A DNA stretch of 23,032 nucleotides from a virus, in the IMG/VR virus record IMGVR_UViG_3300011013_000105, positions 1-23,032 of that record, one strand, 5' to 3'. The notes below the pieces were generated by a model. That model saw only the letters and a program-made list of their open reading frames with translations. It made no database searches and was not told the origin of the DNA. The position numbers were made by a program, and so were the translations under genes. Of the stretch, positions 3,652 to 18,471 are shown one piece after another. Every line of letters begins with the position of its first letter. The stretch's first letter is position 1.

Positions 3652-3845
3652 TGTCAGAGCTTTACATATACGAAAAAATGTTGAAGAATATCCGCGAACG
3701 GAAAGATGTGGTAGCAGATGCCCTATGTCATGGGCCTGTACCAGATTTTACCGCATTCAAGGAACTCCGCGCAAAACTCGCGGAACTTGCAATAACAGAA
3801 CAGGATCTTAGAGACCTGCTAGAAAAGGTGGAAGATGATGAGTAA
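3651..3845 (+). CDS. Small helical protein of unknown function
   Basis: 64 aa, mostly charged and probably helical, with a Leu-rich heptad-like C-terminus (FKELRAKLAELAITEQDLRDLLEKVEDDE). No signal peptide or membrane segment. Its ATG shares the last A of the endolysin stop codon (TAATG), so expression is probably by reinitiation. It overlaps the GroES-like gene by 11 nt. The position between lysis and head genes does not assign a role; a small head-assembly or adaptor helper is possible but unproven. Confidence 0.6.
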   Translation: MSELYIYEKMLKNIRERKDVVADALCHGPVPDFTAFKELRAKLAELAITEQDLRDLLEKVEDDE

Positions 3846-4326
3846 AACACTATTGGTCCCCGATCATTATGTGGACCAAAAACCAAAAGAACCCCCAAAA
3901 ACAAAACAGAAGATAGGTGTTCTAGAAGAAGCATACGTTCGTGCTGAAGATCGTTTTTTAGACCCTTCAAAAATTACAGATACTGTTATGGGTAGATTGC
4001 CAGAACCTACAGGGTGGCGAGTTTTATTGCTACCGTATCAAGGTAAAAAGCAAACGGATGGCGGTATTTTGTTGCCAACAGAGGTTAGAGAGAAAGAAGC
4101 ATTAGGAACTGTTTGTGGTTACGTGCTGAAAGTAGGGCCTCTGGCTTATTTAGATGCAGATAAGTTTGGTGAAAACTCAGAGCCTTGGTGTAAAAAAGGT
4201 GATTGGGTTATTTTTGGAAGGTATGCAGGCAGTCGGTTTAAAATAGAAGGTGGTGAGGTTCGTCTTCTTAACGATGATGAAATCTTAGCTCGTATAACTG
4301 ATCCTGACGATATATTACATTATTAG
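3835..4326 (+). CDS. GroES-like co-chaperonin (Cpn10 family) with N-terminal extension
   Basis: 163 aa. Co-chaperonins cap GroEL and help fold capsid proteins, as T4 gp31 does. The Cpn10 fold is recognisable from about residue 59: TGWRVLLLPY, the mobile loop with GGILLP (76-81, the hydrophobic GroEL-contacting tripeptide), GTVCGYVLKVGP, then KKGDWVIFGRYAG and EVRLLNDDEILARI, which matches the GroES C-terminus. The roughly 55-residue charged N-terminal extension is absent from bacterial GroES. Start is ATGATG at 3835/3838, after AAGGTGG at about 3825-3831. Its place immediately before the scaffold and capsid genes supports a role in capsid folding with host GroEL, since no phage GroEL is seen. 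Confidence 0.87.
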   Translation: MMSKTLLVPDHYVDQKPKEPPKTKQKIGVLEEAYVRAEDRFLDPSKITDTVMGRLPEPTGWRVLLLPYQGKKQTDGGILLPTEVREKEALGTVCGYVLKVGPLAYLDADKFGENSEPWCKKGDWVIFGRYAGSRFKIEGGEVRLLNDDEILARITDPDDILHY

Positions 4327-6372: not shown

Positions 6373-7284
6373 ATGGCTATAGCAAGATCTCAACTCCTTA
6401 AAGAGCTTGAACCCGGACTCAATGCGCTTTTTGGAATGGAATATGATCGGTATGATAATGAACATGCCGAAATTTACGAAACGGAATCTTCAGACAGAGC
6501 GTTTGAAGAAGAGGTAATGTTATCAGGGTTTGGTAGCGCACCAGTAAAAGGTGAAGGACAAGCGGTTTCATTTGATACTGCTAACGAAGCCTATACTGCT
6601 CGTTACACCCATGAAACAATCGCTCTTGCGTTTGCGATAACTGAGGAAGCAGTAGAGGATAACCTCTATGACCGACTTAGCTCTCGTTACACAAAAGCGT
6701 TAGCTCGTTCCATGGCAAATACAAAGCAAGTTAAAGCAGCTGCTATTCTAAACAATGCGTTTGATGACACTGTTACTTATGGAGATGGTAAAGAGCTTTG
6801 TGCTACTGACCATCCAACTGTAGGTGGTGGTAATTTTGCTAACGAATTGTCAACAGCAGCAGACCTTAACGAAACATCGCTAGAGCAGTCTTTAATTGAC
6901 ATTTCTGCTTTTATTGATGAGCGTGGGTTAAAAATTGCTTTGCAAGGCCGTAAGATGATTATTCCACCAGCACTTCAGTTCGTAGCTGAAAGGTTGATGG
7001 CTTCTAATCTTCGTACTGCAACAGCAGATAATGATATTAATGCTGTCCGTAATATGGGAATGCTCCCAGAAGGTTATGTGGTGAACCACTTCTTAACCGA
7101 TACGGATGCGTTTTTTATCAAAACAGATGCTCCTAACGGTTTTAAACATTTTGAGCGTAGCGCAATCAAAACTTCTATGGAAGGTGATTTTGATACAGGC
7201 AATGCTCGGTATAAAGCCCGTGAAAGATACAGCTTTGGCGTCTCTGACCCAAGGTGTGTATTTGGTTCTCCTGGAGCCGCCTAA
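6373..7284 (+). CDS. Major capsid protein
   Basis: 303 aa. Likely the HK97-fold shell subunit. Recognisable features include an acidic N-terminal helix region, FGSAPVKGEGQAVSFDTANEAYTARYTHETIALAFAITEE split over residues 52-92, the DHPTVGGGNFAN loop, and a C-terminal HFERSAIK / KARERYSFGVSDPR stretch, all typical of marine podovirus capsid proteins. AGGAGG at 6360-6365 overlaps the preceding stop codon and sits 7 nt from the ATG, the strongest ribosome-binding site in the head module. Two intrinsic terminators follow, as expected for a highly expressed gene at the end of a transcript. Confidence 0.88.
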   Translation: MAIARSQLLKELEPGLNALFGMEYDRYDNEHAEIYETESSDRAFEEEVMLSGFGSAPVKGEGQAVSFDTANEAYTARYTHETIALAFAITEEAVEDNLYDRLSSRYTKALARSMANTKQVKAAAILNNAFDDTVTYGDGKELCATDHPTVGGGNFANELSTAADLNETSLEQSLIDISAFIDERGLKIALQGRKMIIPPALQFVAERLMASNLRTATADNDINAVRNMGMLPEGYVVNHFLTDTDAFFIKTDAPNGFKHFERSAIKTSMEGDFDTGNARYKARERYSFGVSDPRCVFGSPGAA

Positions 7285-7288
7285 TATT

Positions 7289-7314
7289 AAGGGGGGATTA
7301 TTCCCCCCTTTTTT
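7289..7314 (+). terminator. Intrinsic terminator after the major capsid gene
   Basis: Stem AAGGGGGG (7289-7296), loop ATTATT, complement CCCCCCTT (7303-7310), with a T tract running 7309-7314. It begins 5 nt after the capsid stop codon, so it should end or reduce transcription from the head module. Confidence 0.9.
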
Positions 7315-7329
7315 CTTTTATTTATAAAT

Positions 7330-7345
7330 TGTTTCACGTGGAACA
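7330..7345. promoter_or_regulatory. parS-like palindrome (chromosomal ParB-binding site consensus)
   Basis: The 16-mer TGTTTCACGTGGAACA differs at one base from each of the two symmetrical chromosomal parS forms, TGTTTCACGTGAAACA and TGTTCCACGTGGAACA, and carries the core CACGTG. It is preceded by a 10-bp AT palindrome (7320-7329). It lies between the two terminators of the only large non-coding gap. No parA or parB gene is in the window. Match to consensus is seen; binding by host or phage ParB is inference. Confidence 0.65.
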
Positions 7346-7347
7346 TT

Positions 7348-7375
7348 ATCCCCCCTTGTGTTCGGGGGATTTTTT
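7348..7375 (+). terminator. Second intrinsic terminator downstream of the capsid gene
   Basis: Stem ATCCCCC (7348-7354) pairs with GGGGGAT (7364-7370) around a 9-nt loop, with T's at 7370-7375. It starts 3 nt after the parS-like site, so that site sits exactly between two terminators. Confidence 0.85.
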
Positions 7376-7397
7376 GTGTACGGTAACTTATCCCTGA

Positions 7398-7416
7398 CAG
7401 TTACATCGTGTAGCTG
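7398..7416 (+). promoter_or_regulatory. Leader hairpin upstream of the 7442 virion gene
   Basis: Inverted repeat CAGTTACA-TCG-TGTAGCTG gives an 8-bp stem with one G-T wobble and a 3-nt loop. CTGACA occurs on both flanks (7394-7399 and 7414-7419). It lies 25 nt before the ATG. It may be an operator or an mRNA 5' stabiliser. No convincing -10/-35 pair is seen around it, although a promoter is expected after two terminators. Confidence 0.4.
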
Positions 7417-7441
7417 ACACTAGCCAAGACAGGAGAAACAA

Positions 7442-8071
7442 ATGGCTAATACTACTTTTAGCGGTCCCGTTCGCTCAGAAGGCGGTTTTGAACAAGTCAC
7501 AAAAAGCGCAACTACTGGAGCTTTTACAACTAATTTAGATGTAGACTCTTCGGGCAATCTTCTTACTACAGGATATGTGATTGGTCAAACTCGTATCTAT
7601 AGACAAACTTCCGCAGATGGCTGGAATGATGCAGCCTATGCCCCTACCATTTCACAAAGAGGCTCTATTTTTCTTTTAGATAAAGATGAAGCAACAACAG
7701 TAACTCTACCTGCTGTCACTTCTTCCGACCTTGGTGCTACGTTTACTTTTATAGAAACAGTAGCTTCTAACGCTGCTCGTGCAATCACCACTACTTATGA
7801 TAATGATTACTTTGTAGGTGGGTTGAATGTAGGAACAACAGCCGCAGAAAGTGGAGCAATCGGTTTTATCGTTGCAGCGGGAACAGATAGAATCCTCACT
7901 TTTGACGATAACCTTGCTAACGGTATGGGAGCAGTTGGCTCACACGCAACTTTCACTGCTGTTCTTACAGGGAACACTGGTGCAGGTGGAGGAGCAAAAC
8001 TCGTTTGGGCTGTTACTGGTTCAGTAGGCTCTGCTGACGCAGATACTGATGGAACAGCAATCTTTACTTAA
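7442..8071 (+). CDS. Beta-rich virion protein, probable head or tail structural protein
   Basis: 209 aa rich in Thr, Ala, Gly and Ser with few Lys, typical of an extracellular beta-structured phage protein. The N-terminus MANTTFSGPVRSEGGFE is a pattern I associate with marine-phage structural proteins. The middle (SIFLLDKDEATTVTLP) and the FTFIETVASNAARAITT stretch suggest a repeating beta fold as in fibres or decoration proteins. AGGAG at about 7431-7435 precedes the ATG. It is the first gene after the double terminator, so probably the first gene of a new transcript. Exact virion location is unknown. Confidence 0.7.
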   Translation: MANTTFSGPVRSEGGFEQVTKSATTGAFTTNLDVDSSGNLLTTGYVIGQTRIYRQTSADGWNDAAYAPTISQRGSIFLLDKDEATTVTLPAVTSSDLGATFTFIETVASNAARAITTTYDNDYFVGGLNVGTTAAESGAIGFIVAAGTDRILTFDDNLANGMGAVGSHATFTAVLTGNTGAGGGAKLVWAVTGSVGSADADTDGTAIFT

Positions 8072-8997: not shown

Positions 8998-8999
8998 CT

Positions 9000-9158
9000 A
9001 TGGATCCAAAAGAGGTATTGAAGTTGCTAGAAAAGCATGAGGCAGAGTGCATCAGAAGATACTCTCATATAGAAAAAGTATTAGACAAACTAGACTTAAG
9101 AATGTGGGGCATCGTTGTTTTAATTATCGGTGCAGCTGCTTTAGATAAATTAATTTAA
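9000..9158 (+). CDS. 52-aa bitopic membrane protein, XhlA/holin-like architecture
   Basis: MDPKEVLKLLEKHEAEC begins an amphipathic, highly charged helix (1-34); a single hydrophobic span follows (35-51, MWGIVVLIIGAAALDKL). This helix-plus-one-TM layout resembles XhlA-type accessory holins and other small phage membrane proteins. AAGG at 8986-8989 favours the ATG at 9000 over the one at 8991. The stop overlaps the next potential ATG by one base. A lysis role away from the main cassette (2535-3651) is inference; an accessory membrane function is equally possible. Confidence 0.6.
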   Translation: MDPKEVLKLLEKHEAECIRRYSHIEKVLDKLDLRMWGIVVLIIGAAALDKLI

Positions 9159-14336: not shown

Positions 14337-15545
14337 ATGGCTCGGGGAAGAGGTGGCTTTGTAGGTGGTTATGATGGTCTTAGTGTACCTGATGCACCAA
14401 CTATAGGTGAAGCTACTGCTGGAAATACTCAAGTATCAATAGCATTTACTGCACCTTCTGATGTTGGTGATGATGCTATTACAGGGTATGCAGCTAAAGC
14501 CACTGATGGCACAAACACATTTAATGCTACAGGTTCATCTTCTCCTTTAACGATAACTGGTCTTACAAATGGAACTAGTTATACAGGGCAAGTATGGGCT
14601 ATCAATGATTATGGCGTTAGCCCATTATCTGCTGCTACTTCTAGTTTTACTCCTCAATTGGCTAGAGGATTGTTTATGGGAGGACAATCTGAAAAAAATG
14701 AGATAGATTACATTGATATTTCTACAACTGGTAATGCTACAGACTTTGGTAATTTAACTGAATGGAGGCAGTGGCTTTGTGGGTTTGGTAATAGTTCTAG
14801 AGCTATTGCATCAGCAGGACAAATAGCAAGTACCATTTATGGAAATAACAGTATGGACTATGTGACGATTGCCAGTACAGGCAATGCGTCAGATTTCGGC
14901 GATCTTACAACATCAAGAAAAGAACCAGCAGGTGCGGCAAGCAGTACAAGAGGAATAACTTATTCTGGTAAGAACGGTAGTAGTAGTAATACGAATGTAA
15001 TTGATTATGTGACGATAGCCTCAACGGGAAATGCAATAGATTTCGGTGATTCAGCTACTATGAGAGGATTAGCAACAGGTAATCTTAACAGCACTACAAG
15101 GGCTTGTTTTGCAGGAGGTTATAGTGAAAGTGGCGGTAATAGAAACACAATAGATTATATCACTATTGCCTCTACTGGAAACACTACAGATTTTGGGGAT
15201 ACAGTTGGTGCATCGGCTGGTATGGGTGGGTGTTCAAATAGTACAAGAGGTTTGATGTCTGGCCCTATTTCCGGTCTTACTAATAATAACACAATACAGT
15301 ATATCACGATAGCATCAACAGGTAACGCTACAGATTTTGGCGATCTTACAGCCGTAGCTAGTTACGGTTCGGGTTGTGCTAGTTCTCTTAGAGGAGTTAT
15401 GACGCTGGGTACGTCTGGTGGTAGTTACTCTAATGTTATGAATTATGTCACCATAGCTTCAACTGGTAATGGTACAGATTTCGGTGACTTAACAGTTGCA
15501 AGAGATGGTATGGGAGCTACCTCTTCTGCTCATGGAGGAACGTAG
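14337..15545 (+). CDS. Receptor-binding/fibre protein: fibronectin III domain plus six kelch-like repeats
   Basis: 402 aa. Residues 17-107 are a fibronectin type III domain (PDAPTIGEATAGNTQVSIAF ... TGLTNGTSYTGQVWAIN). Six repeats of about 48-50 residues follow, each with a Y(V/I)TIASTGNATDFGDLT-like core; the DFG triplets start at residues 136, 186, 236, 285, 333 and 381, each unit followed by a TRG...GG turn. Such arrays fold as beta-propellers and act on host surfaces, as kelch-like fibre proteins of marine phages are thought to do. AGGAG at about 14325-14329. First of three adjacent paralogues; it alone has the FNIII domain. Confidence 0.78.
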   Translation: MARGRGGFVGGYDGLSVPDAPTIGEATAGNTQVSIAFTAPSDVGDDAITGYAAKATDGTNTFNATGSSSPLTITGLTNGTSYTGQVWAINDYGVSPLSAATSSFTPQLARGLFMGGQSEKNEIDYIDISTTGNATDFGNLTEWRQWLCGFGNSSRAIASAGQIASTIYGNNSMDYVTIASTGNASDFGDLTTSRKEPAGAASSTRGITYSGKNGSSSNTNVIDYVTIASTGNAIDFGDSATMRGLATGNLNSTTRACFAGGYSESGGNRNTIDYITIASTGNTTDFGDTVGASAGMGGCSNSTRGLMSGPISGLTNNNTIQYITIASTGNATDFGDLTAVASYGSGCASSLRGVMTLGTSGGSYSNVMNYVTIASTGNGTDFGDLTVARDGMGATSSAHGGT

Positions 15546-15547
15546 TA

Positions 15548-17425
15548 ATGGCTCCATCTTATTCAGGCGTTTGGAGACTAAACACTCAGTACCAGTATAG
15601 AAGTCAATGGCCTCTTGATCCTAATCTTGAACCAGTAGGATTATTTGCAGGAGGACAAGATTCCTCTGCTGTAATAAACACAGTTCAAAAAATAGTACCG
15701 AGTATAGCAAGTGATGCTACAGACTTTGGAGATTTATCAGCAGTAAGACAGGCAACAGCAGGTGGAGGCAGTGATACTAGGTTTATTGTTGCTGGTGGGT
15801 ATCAGGCTTCAAAAGTAAATATTATAGAATACTTTACTTATACGACAGCAGGAAATGCAACAGATTTTGGAGATCTTGGAGCGACTAGAGATTTACTGTC
15901 TTCTACTTCTAATAATACTAGATTTATTACTATGGGAGGAGCCTCTGCAACAGACACAATAGAGTATGTCACCATAGCCAGTACAGGCAATGCCACAGAT
16001 TTTGGCGATCTCACTGCAACATTAGAAGAAGGTCATGTAGGTATTATATCTAGTTCCACAAGGGGTATACTTGCAGGAGGTAAAAAAGGTGGTAGTAGGG
16101 CTAACGTAATTGAATATCTCACTATTGCTAGTACAGGAAATGGTAGAGACTTTGGTGATATGACTGCTGCTAGAAATTTATTAGCAGGTGCATCTTCTAC
16201 AACTAGAGGATTAATGATTGGTGGAGATACTGGGTCAGGAACAGGAAGCAATGTAATTGATTATATAACAATTCAAAGTATGGGTAATGCGACAGACTTT
16301 GGTGATACTAGTGGAAATAGAACGACTAGCGCAGGTCTTGCATCTTCTACAAAAGCAATAGTTGGTGGTGGTAATAACAATGGAGCTCAAACAAATATTA
16401 TTGAATCAGTTACAATAGCATCCACTGGTAACGCTTCTGATTTTGGAGATCTATTAACAGTAAATACATTTCTTTCAGCAGGTTGTGCTGGTCAAGCATC
16501 AGTCCAACCAAATCTTTTACCATCTTTACCATCATCAGGTAACACTGGTTTATATACTTATGCAATCGATTCATTCTTACAATCAATAGATATAGCTTCT
16601 CTAGGAAACGGTGTGGCATTTGGTGATATAAGTTATGTATATGTAAATGGAACGTATGGTGCAGCTTCAAGTTCTACTAGATGTTGCTTTGGTGGTGGAG
16701 CCTTTACTCCTCCTGGAGGTAGTTTTGCTAGGCAAAATGTAATTGATTTATCCATATTTGCTACAAGAGGTTTAGGTACAGATTTTGGTGACTTAACGAC
16801 AGCAAGGCAAACAACAGGTGGATCTAATAGTACAAGAGGAATGTATGTAGGAGGACAACCAAGTTCTTATACAAATGTCGTTGACTATATAACTATTGCT
16901 AGTGCTAGTAACGCCACAGATTTTGGAGACTTGTCTGCCAATGTAGGTTTTCCTGCTGTTTCTGGAAACACAACAAGACTTCTTTCTTTAGGTGGTAGAA
17001 CTAGTACCTATATAAATACAATAGAATATTTTACAATATCGTCTACTGGTAATGCAACAGATTTTGGTGATCTTACGCAAGGTATAGGATTTAATGCAGC
17101 AACATCAAGTAGCACTAGAGTTGTAAATTGTGGAGGAACTGATGGTAGTTACACTAATGTTATGGATTATGTGACAACGGCTTCAACTGGAAACGCCACA
17201 GATTTCGGAGATCTCACTGTTGCAATAGGTCAGGGTGGTTGTTTCGGTAATAAAACTACAGGTATATGGGCTGGTGGATATGTTGGAGACGGCAGTAGCA
17301 CTGTAAGCACAATGATGAATTTTACAATAGCCTCAACAGGTAATGCCTCAAATTTTGGCGATCTAATAGCTAGTGCATATACAACAGGAGCAGCACAATC
17401 TAATGGACATGGAGGCATATCGTAA
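15548..17425 (+). CDS. Double kelch-like propeller fibre protein (12 repeats)
   Basis: 625 aa. A short N-terminal anchor (SGVWRLNTQ ... WPLDP, 6-25) resembles residues 27-46 of the next paralogue. Twelve repeats follow, with (D/A/N)FGD cores starting at 59, 106, 151, 201, 250, 298, 357, 412, 458, 505, 552 and 602. Spacing is 45-50 except around residue 312-345, where a low-complexity linker (CAGQASVQPNLLPSLPSS) separates two groups of six, so the protein looks like two six-repeat propellers in tandem. It is likely a surface fibre. It overlaps the next gene by 1 nt (TAATG). Confidence 0.78.
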   Translation: MAPSYSGVWRLNTQYQYRSQWPLDPNLEPVGLFAGGQDSSAVINTVQKIVPSIASDATDFGDLSAVRQATAGGGSDTRFIVAGGYQASKVNIIEYFTYTTAGNATDFGDLGATRDLLSSTSNNTRFITMGGASATDTIEYVTIASTGNATDFGDLTATLEEGHVGIISSSTRGILAGGKKGGSRANVIEYLTIASTGNGRDFGDMTAARNLLAGASSTTRGLMIGGDTGSGTGSNVIDYITIQSMGNATDFGDTSGNRTTSAGLASSTKAIVGGGNNNGAQTNIIESVTIASTGNASDFGDLLTVNTFLSAGCAGQASVQPNLLPSLPSSGNTGLYTYAIDSFLQSIDIASLGNGVAFGDISYVYVNGTYGAASSSTRCCFGGGAFTPPGGSFARQNVIDLSIFATRGLGTDFGDLTTARQTTGGSNSTRGMYVGGQPSSYTNVVDYITIASASNATDFGDLSANVGFPAVSGNTTRLLSLGGRTSTYINTIEYFTISSTGNATDFGDLTQGIGFNAATSSSTRVVNCGGTDGSYTNVMDYVTTASTGNATDFGDLTVAIGQGGCFGNKTTGIWAGGYVGDGSSTVSTMMNFTIASTGNASNFGDLIASAYTTGAAQSNGHGGIS

Positions 17426-18471
17426 TGACTGAAAGATATTTAGGCTCCATAATAACTGCAACCCCAGTTGAACCATCAGAGGGTTTTGAGAACAGTTTAG
17501 CATCTGGTGTGTGGCATTTACGTGATCCACTAATATTTGGTCAGGCAGGTGATTGGCCTACTGCTGGAAATACGACTAGTGTTGGTTTATTTATGGCTGG
17601 TTATGTTGGAACTGCTCCAGTAAACATAGTTGATAAAATAGTTCCAGAAACAACAGGTAATGCCACTGACTTTGGAGACACTTCTAATAATACATATCAT
17701 GGTGCTGGTTTTAGTTCTGATACGAGATCGATTGTTGCTGGAGGATATGGTTCTTCAGCAGCATTGAATGTAATAGAATACTTTACTTTTGCCAGTGCTG
17801 GTAATGCTACAGATTTTGGGGATCTAAATTTTACAGCATACGCTAGTACAGGTTTTTCAAACAATGCTAGAGGAATAGATGTATTGGGATACACTGCCTC
17901 TCCTTCTGCTGGATATTCGAATGTTCTTGAGTATGTAACGATAGCATCTACAGGTAACGCGACAGATTTTGGTGATACATCAATAGCACAAAGAGGAAAT
18001 GCAGGTGCATTAGCTAGTACAACTAGGGGTGTTATTGGTGGTGGGTATAATGGGGGAGCCAAAACAAATGTTATCGACTATGTAACGATAGCATCTACAG
18101 GTAACGCGACAGATTTCGGTGACTTAACTGAAGCAAGATTTAATCCAGCAGGAGCAGGTAGTAATACAAGAGGTATTTTTGCTGGTTCTGGAAGTGGAAC
18201 TTATGGAAATGTTATAGACTATATTACTATTGATTCAACAGGAAATGCTACTGATTTTGGCGATACGTTAGAAGTTCGTGATGGTTTAGCTGGTTTAGCT
18301 ACCTCTACAAAAGCAATATATGGAGGTGGTAGAAATGACTCAGGAGGTAGTACTATAATACAACAAGTTACGATAGCTACTACAGGTGATGCAACAGATT
18401 TCGGTGATTTAACTGCTGCTAAAAGTTTTGCTATGGGTGCTGGTTCTGGTGCTGATGCAGTACAAAGTTAA
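17425..18471 (+). CDS. Kelch-like propeller fibre protein (six repeats)
   Basis: 348 aa. Residues 1-52 (MTERYLGSIITATPVEPSEG ... SGVWHL ... DWPTAGN) form an attachment segment typical of marine-phage tail proteins. Six repeats follow, with DFG starting at 82, 130, 181, 230, 277 and 325. Each repeat runs NVIDYVTIASTGNATDFGDL-like text, a variable stretch, then TRG..GGG. Two repeats share a 38-nt identical DNA segment. No linker or second set of repeats is present, unlike the 15548 paralogue. It ends GADAVQS, without the GHGG-type end of its neighbours. Confidence 0.78.
   Translation: MTERYLGSIITATPVEPSEGFENSLASGVWHLRDPLIFGQAGDWPTAGNTTSVGLFMAGYVGTAPVNIVDKIVPETTGNATDFGDTSNNTYHGAGFSSDTRSIVAGGYGSSAALNVIEYFTFASAGNATDFGDLNFTAYASTGFSNNARGIDVLGYTASPSAGYSNVLEYVTIASTGNATDFGDTSIAQRGNAGALASTTRGVIGGGYNGGAKTNVIDYVTIASTGNATDFGDLTEARFNPAGAGSNTRGIFAGSGSGTYGNVIDYITIDSTGNATDFGDTLEVRDGLAGLATSTKAIYGGGRNDSGGSTIIQQVTIATTGDATDFGDLTAAKSFAMGAGSGADAVQS
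17932..18116. repeat. 38-nt identical segments in successive propeller repeats
   Basis: Bases 17932-17969 and 18079-18116 are identical over 38 nt, 147 nt (49 codons) apart, equal to one repeat length. Other repeats of the same gene differ at several synonymous positions over this core, so this pair was probably homogenised recently. Confidence 0.85.

Follow-up and report, generated by a model that had tools for sequence, protein, structure and literature searches.

Genomic context of the 16-mer

The window, i.e., the whole 23,032-nucleotide stretch of the viral record analysed here, is probably a fragment, so that the genome of this phage is incomplete here. We found that its major capsid gene is separated from the next ORF by a 157-bp gap (7285-7441), which contains the 16-mer TGTTTCACGTGGAACA between two terminator-like hairpins, followed in the same gap by a Mu-gpT-DE RNA (Table 1). 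The sequence-only reading fairly described this gap as the only sizeable one, since a 55-aa ORF occupies the only other interval of that size (8998-9157). Two further features of the gap were considered and rejected. The AT palindrome ATTTATAAAT, said to precede the 16-mer, does exist (7320-7329), but the sister phage lacks it and it thus lies outside the parS element, and the leader structure downstream of the 16-mer, considered as a novel element, equals the Rfam Mu-gpT-DE family. Elsewhere in the window, a GroES-like co-chaperonin (PHROG 3188), annotated also in phages HTVC027P and CRP-902, is encoded within the structural module (3835-4326), and three consecutive large repeat ORFs with the STGNATDFGDL motif, probably tail or adhesion repeat proteins, occupy positions 14337-18471.

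Table 1. Features of the gap downstream of the capsid gene and of its two flanking genes.
Feature	Position	Strand	Remarks
Major capsid protein gene, Mu gpT-like	6373-7284	+	PHROG 371; PF25209, PF10124
Terminator-like hairpin after the capsid gene, 5' of parS	7289-7310	+	Letter-for-letter identical in the sister phage
parS site TGTTTCACGTGGAACA, host chromosomal form	7330-7345	.	Unique in the window; beside parAB in alphaproteobacteria; conserved in the sister phage (G017/L327/L328)
Second terminator-like hairpin and T run, 3' of parS	7353-7374	+	Kept in the sister phage, letters changed
Mu-gpT-DE RNA (Rfam RF03012), known element of the same gap	7392-7444	+	70.8 bits; gathering score 49
ORF of unknown function, 3' of the gap	7442-8071	+	PHROG 36974, weak and N-terminal only; no Pfam match

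Apart from its own reverse complement (TGTTCCACGTGAAACA), the 16-mer has no other match in the window at up to three mismatches. It fits the TGTTNCACGTGAAACA-type consensus of chromosomal parS sites. The expectation by chance in 23 kb is 1.2e-5 exact copies, or 6e-4 with at most one mismatch, in agreement with the previous estimate of well under 0.01. The 16-mer does lie, as had been stated, one base from each of two symmetrical parS forms, TGTTTCACGTGAAACA and TGTTCCACGTGGAACA, but this description proved too modest, as the 16-mer is itself found as a parS beside parAB on bacterial chromosomes.

Occurrence of the same string in alphaproteobacterial chromosomes

Sites of the TGTTYCAYGTGRAACA type were detected in 64 of 76 sampled alphaproteobacterial genomes, while the reversed control pattern gave none. 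The exact window form is present in several of these genomes, where the neighbourhood of TGTTTCACGTGGAACA as a chromosomal parS is mnmE-mnmG-rsmG-parA-parB. In two of them (G090 and G045), it lies near the start of mnmG, around 2 kb from a canonical site and adjoining rsmG-parA-parB; for G090 the ParB, ParA, MnmG and MnmE neighbours were verified by Pfam. Some low-GC genomes, including G103 and G104, carry two copies of TGTTTCATGTGAAACA adjoining parAB; the order-level host search around G103 reached a single genome. Judged by its letters and this setting, the window 16-mer represents a true form of chromosomal parS and not a degenerate one.

The variants seen in phages also match those of host parS, at times in forms that are incompatible with an RNA hairpin. 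In particular, CATGTG forms of parS in some alphaproteobacteria parallel the CATGTG variants of the phages. One form that is common in a single phage clade, GTTCCACATGGAAC, was not among the host sites listed; this parS-like sequence with an altered centre was noted in the capsid gap of L355, L360, L362, L363, L365 and L381.

Phage family and conservation of the site in the capsid gap

The capsid relatives of the window are HTVC023P-like marine phages, namely Pelagibacter phages HTVC027P and HTVC023P and Roseobacter phages CRP-901 and CRP-902, and the window phage is a member of this lytic group. The life cycle of CRP-901 and CRP-902 has been described as strictly lytic (PMC10149686). An attempt to derive the host from MAG and single-cell contigs with capsid relatives was abandoned; their titles cover several groups (SAR116, Maricaulis, Rhodobacteraceae, Flavobacterium, and others) and none of these contigs has parS in the capsid gap, so that the host cannot be assigned.

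Comparison of the gap between relatives, which the sequence-only reading had proposed, revealed that the sister phage retains parS amid altered surrounding sequence. The sister contigs L327 and L328 (97% capsid identity) carry TGTTTCACGTGAAACA at an equal distance from the capsid stop, and the letters around it have diverged, including both arms of the second hairpin. In directed scans, around 30 contigs with capsid identities from 97% down to 33% contain the core right after the capsid stop. In the same context, a control palindrome gave 9 matches, compared with at least 120 for the parS core; by no means all of the latter come from the HTVC023P-like family, and many matches outside it are unrelated and were left out of the counts.

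Retrieval by capsid homology, which is blind to parS, yielded 165 distinct capsid gaps (the window included). GTTYCACGTGRAAC was found in 4 of them, and the number rises to 15 when CATGTG/CACATG forms are included; dinucleotide shuffles of the same gaps contained no sites. In the remaining 150 relatives, the capsid gap contains no site, and many of the site-less contigs are too short to cover the terL region. On the capsid tree, several changes between presence and absence of the site are needed, at least three of which are forced by well-supported branches.

Other palindromes were also observed at this position. Seven contigs (L028, L030, L033, L036, L039, L041, and L054) carry CGAACAATTGTTCG after the capsid stop, and CGAACAAATGTTCT-like forms occur as well. 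The CGAACAATTGTTCG palindrome, which resembles Gram-positive SOS boxes, is possibly another protein-binding site. In the distant L244, L304, and L312 (33% capsid identity), parS abuts the stop codon of the capsid gene, with a second palindrome, GTGAACCGGTTCAC, just 3' of it.

A second position upstream of terL and one copy per genome

Many of the other scan matches turned out to belong to the same phage family and to lie 5' of terL, which makes this region a second hot spot. The terL set was built by terminase-homology retrieval only, again blind to parS, and comprises 61 distinct loci with sufficient upstream DNA. A core lies no more than 450 bp upstream of terL in 43 of these loci. The sites of the set are mostly placed at -106 to -110 or at -150 from terL, others near -1055. 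Counting the site anywhere in the locus DNA, one core is present in 51 of the 61 loci and two in none. The outer T and A, although not required by the search pattern, are conserved in 39/39 sites, with flanks averaging approximately 0.68, and the full TGTTTCACGTGAAACA is nearly invariant across these 39. Most contigs of the terL clade (L508-L586) carry a single perfect parS around 108 or 150 bp 5' of terL. In G113, the gene 5' of terL begins with the site itself, which supplies the codons for MFHVKQ.

The two positions appear as alternatives. In the contigs in which both places are readable (L514, L545, and L582), the site is at terL and not in the capsid gap, while in three genomes of 59-60 kb (G001, G017, and G019) it is in the capsid gap only. 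Cultured HTVC027P carries a single core site, a perfect GTTTCACGTGAAAC at 16413-16426 (2914-2927 of L507), within an unannotated ORF at neither hot spot, and it is the only cultured relative with such a site. None was found in HTVC023P, CRP-901, CRP-902, 023Pt_psg01, and DSL-LC04, or in some uncultured relatives of 54-58 kb (G008, G009, G112, G114, and G158). Many members of the family therefore carry the site, but not all of them do. A virus record of 59,551 bases whose family placement is unknown (G015, L325) contains five copies of the parS core and gave no match to ParB_N.

Absence of phage partition genes

The absence of parAB from the vicinity, noted previously, holds for the whole window, in which neither family searches of the main ORFs nor tblastn with host ParA and ParB detected these genes. 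The sequence-only reading had left room for a parABS cassette elsewhere in the phage genome and proposed a search for parA, parB, and further copies of the 16-mer. The sister-phage genomes of approximately 60 kb supply the answer, for their single site is accompanied by neither ParA nor ParB. More generally, each of the parS-bearing relatives of 59-60 kb examined possesses a single site and none gave a match to ParB_N (PF02195), ParA-type AAA_31 (PF13614), or integrase families, while control families were detected; tblastn with host ParA and ParB found no match in 2.2 Mb of phage loci. We therefore reject a phage-encoded cassette for the near-complete relatives, a status judged for those of 58-60 kb on length alone.

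Discussion

The identity of the site and the action of selection on it are well supported. The terL loci, the conservation, and the one-copy pattern satisfy what we require of a borrowed parS, i.e., a site retained by selection in an element without ParB. The relatives retain a single parS per genome, in one of a few positions, and lack partition genes; this pattern suggests that host ParB is borrowed by these viruses. This supports the previous proposal of a chromosome-type parS for host ParB in a phage without parAB, for which the one-site relatives of approximately 60 kb, the conservation in the sister phage, and the single parS kept at alternative positions across relatives speak. A further suggestion, control of capsid versus tail transcription, seems unlikely, since the position of the site moves between relatives (capsid gap, upstream of terL, other places); this favours a role for the whole genome, and a benefit of that kind is likely because one copy is kept while its place changes.

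We consider it probable that the 16-mer functions as a host-type parS and brings host ParB onto the phage chromosome. Binding of ParB to the phage site is likely, although it is inferred from sequence in the absence of binding data. Host ParB would bind the 16-mer, load as a CTP clamp, and slide onto the neighbouring phage DNA. The cell would thereby handle the phage genome like a chromosome marked by ParB, with the phage supplying the site and neither ParA nor ParB. Host ParA and ParB, possibly with ParB-loaded SMC, might then position, hold, or separate infecting and replicating phage genomes. What recruitment would bring about, be it positioning, segregation, SMC loading, or titration, is likewise inferred, without functional data.

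Among other explanations, titration remains possible but is unlikely. Replicating phage copies, expected to be many late in infection, might pull ParB off the chromosome and so block host segregation or free resources, as in the SGI1-IncC pair, in which parS copies on SGI1 destabilise the helper plasmid in a dose-dependent manner (PMC10954446). Such an effect would, however, favour several sites per genome, and the lack of any terL locus with more than one makes titration the weaker option.

We hold it to be quite improbable that bound or spreading ParB acts locally, as a roadblock or silencer of nearby late genes such as those of the capsid and terminase. The window site does lie between two terminators, and ParB silenced nearby promoters in plasmid tests with P. 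aeruginosa; however, in most of the bacteria studied, chromosomal parS sites silence their surroundings only to a limited extent (PMC5521831), and the place of the phage site varies among relatives, from directly after the capsid gene to -108 or about -1055 of terL and elsewhere.

It is very doubtful that the palindrome is primarily a stem-loop of the capsid mRNA (a 3' stabiliser, processing site, or part of a terminator) with only a secondary likeness to parS. Most variants can form a GTTYC/GRAAC stem, some flanks lengthen the palindrome, and different palindromes, e.g., CGAACAATTGTTCG, occupy the equivalent gap of other relatives. Yet, the L242 and L357 forms cannot pair (-0.5 and -0.6 kcal/mol) and remain within host-type parS variation, the minimum-energy fold of the window gap omits the stem, and the variation, loop letters included, tracks host parS, all of which favours a DNA site. 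In addition, terminators occur with or without the palindrome, and the identical string is present 5' of terL and at the G113 gene start, away from the capsid mRNA. Finally, it is hardly credible that the site serves a different regulator that recognises a CACGTG core, or that it is host DNA copied without function, readings which only the missing ParB binding data leave room for, as the 16 bp equal host-class parS exactly, asymmetrical and CATGTG forms included, and the conservation and one-copy pattern speak against neutrality.

As for known systems, the closest likeness is to chromosomal ParABS of alphaproteobacteria, where the identical 16 bp and also the asymmetrical and CATGTG variants stand beside parAB, whereas the phage site stands alone in a lytic genome without parA or parB. 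The genome of the virulent Bacillus phage phi29 is reportedly handled by host Spo0J during entrapment in spores, which is likewise a case of a virulent phage genome managed by a host chromosomal ParB; it differs in involving a sporulating Firmicute host and one phage type, and we know of no family-wide one-copy pattern for it. P1 and N15 are temperate phages that persist as extrachromosomal prophages with their own parABS. Some mycobacteriophages also form extrachromosomal prophages that carry parABS (PMC7157519). All of these are phage genomes with partition sites, but they are temperate and encode ParA and ParB, whereas the HTVC023P-like relatives gave no sign of ParA, ParB, or an integrase. 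The proven case of borrowing is the mobile element SGI1, which has 'stolen' parS sites only and uses the ParB of an IncC plasmid (PMC10954446). Both SGI1 and the phages bring just the site and would take ParB from another replicon, but SGI1 exploits a helper plasmid system with two copies, as opposed to one chromosome-type site in the phages. The statement that nothing of the kind had been described thus stands in part: the phage-family papers checked make no mention of parS, and literature searches on parS, phages, and host ParB gave us no description for marine phages, but mobile elements are known to recruit a ParB that is not their own.

ParABS is regarded as machinery of chromosomes and plasmids. 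On balance, we lean towards the view that lytic marine phages of a widespread family, devoid of lysogenic genes, each possess one centromere of the host type, which can occupy interchangeable positions and has the variant of the host, and through which host ParB, with ParA or SMC, would organise phage chromosomes during infection. If true, a conserved single host parS without parAB would reveal virulent phages entering the host segregation system. The variant of parS in a phage should then match host ParB and would offer a new clue to host range. The idea is testable on cultured SAR11 phages and bears on the location of phage genomes inside infected marine cells of small size and slow growth.
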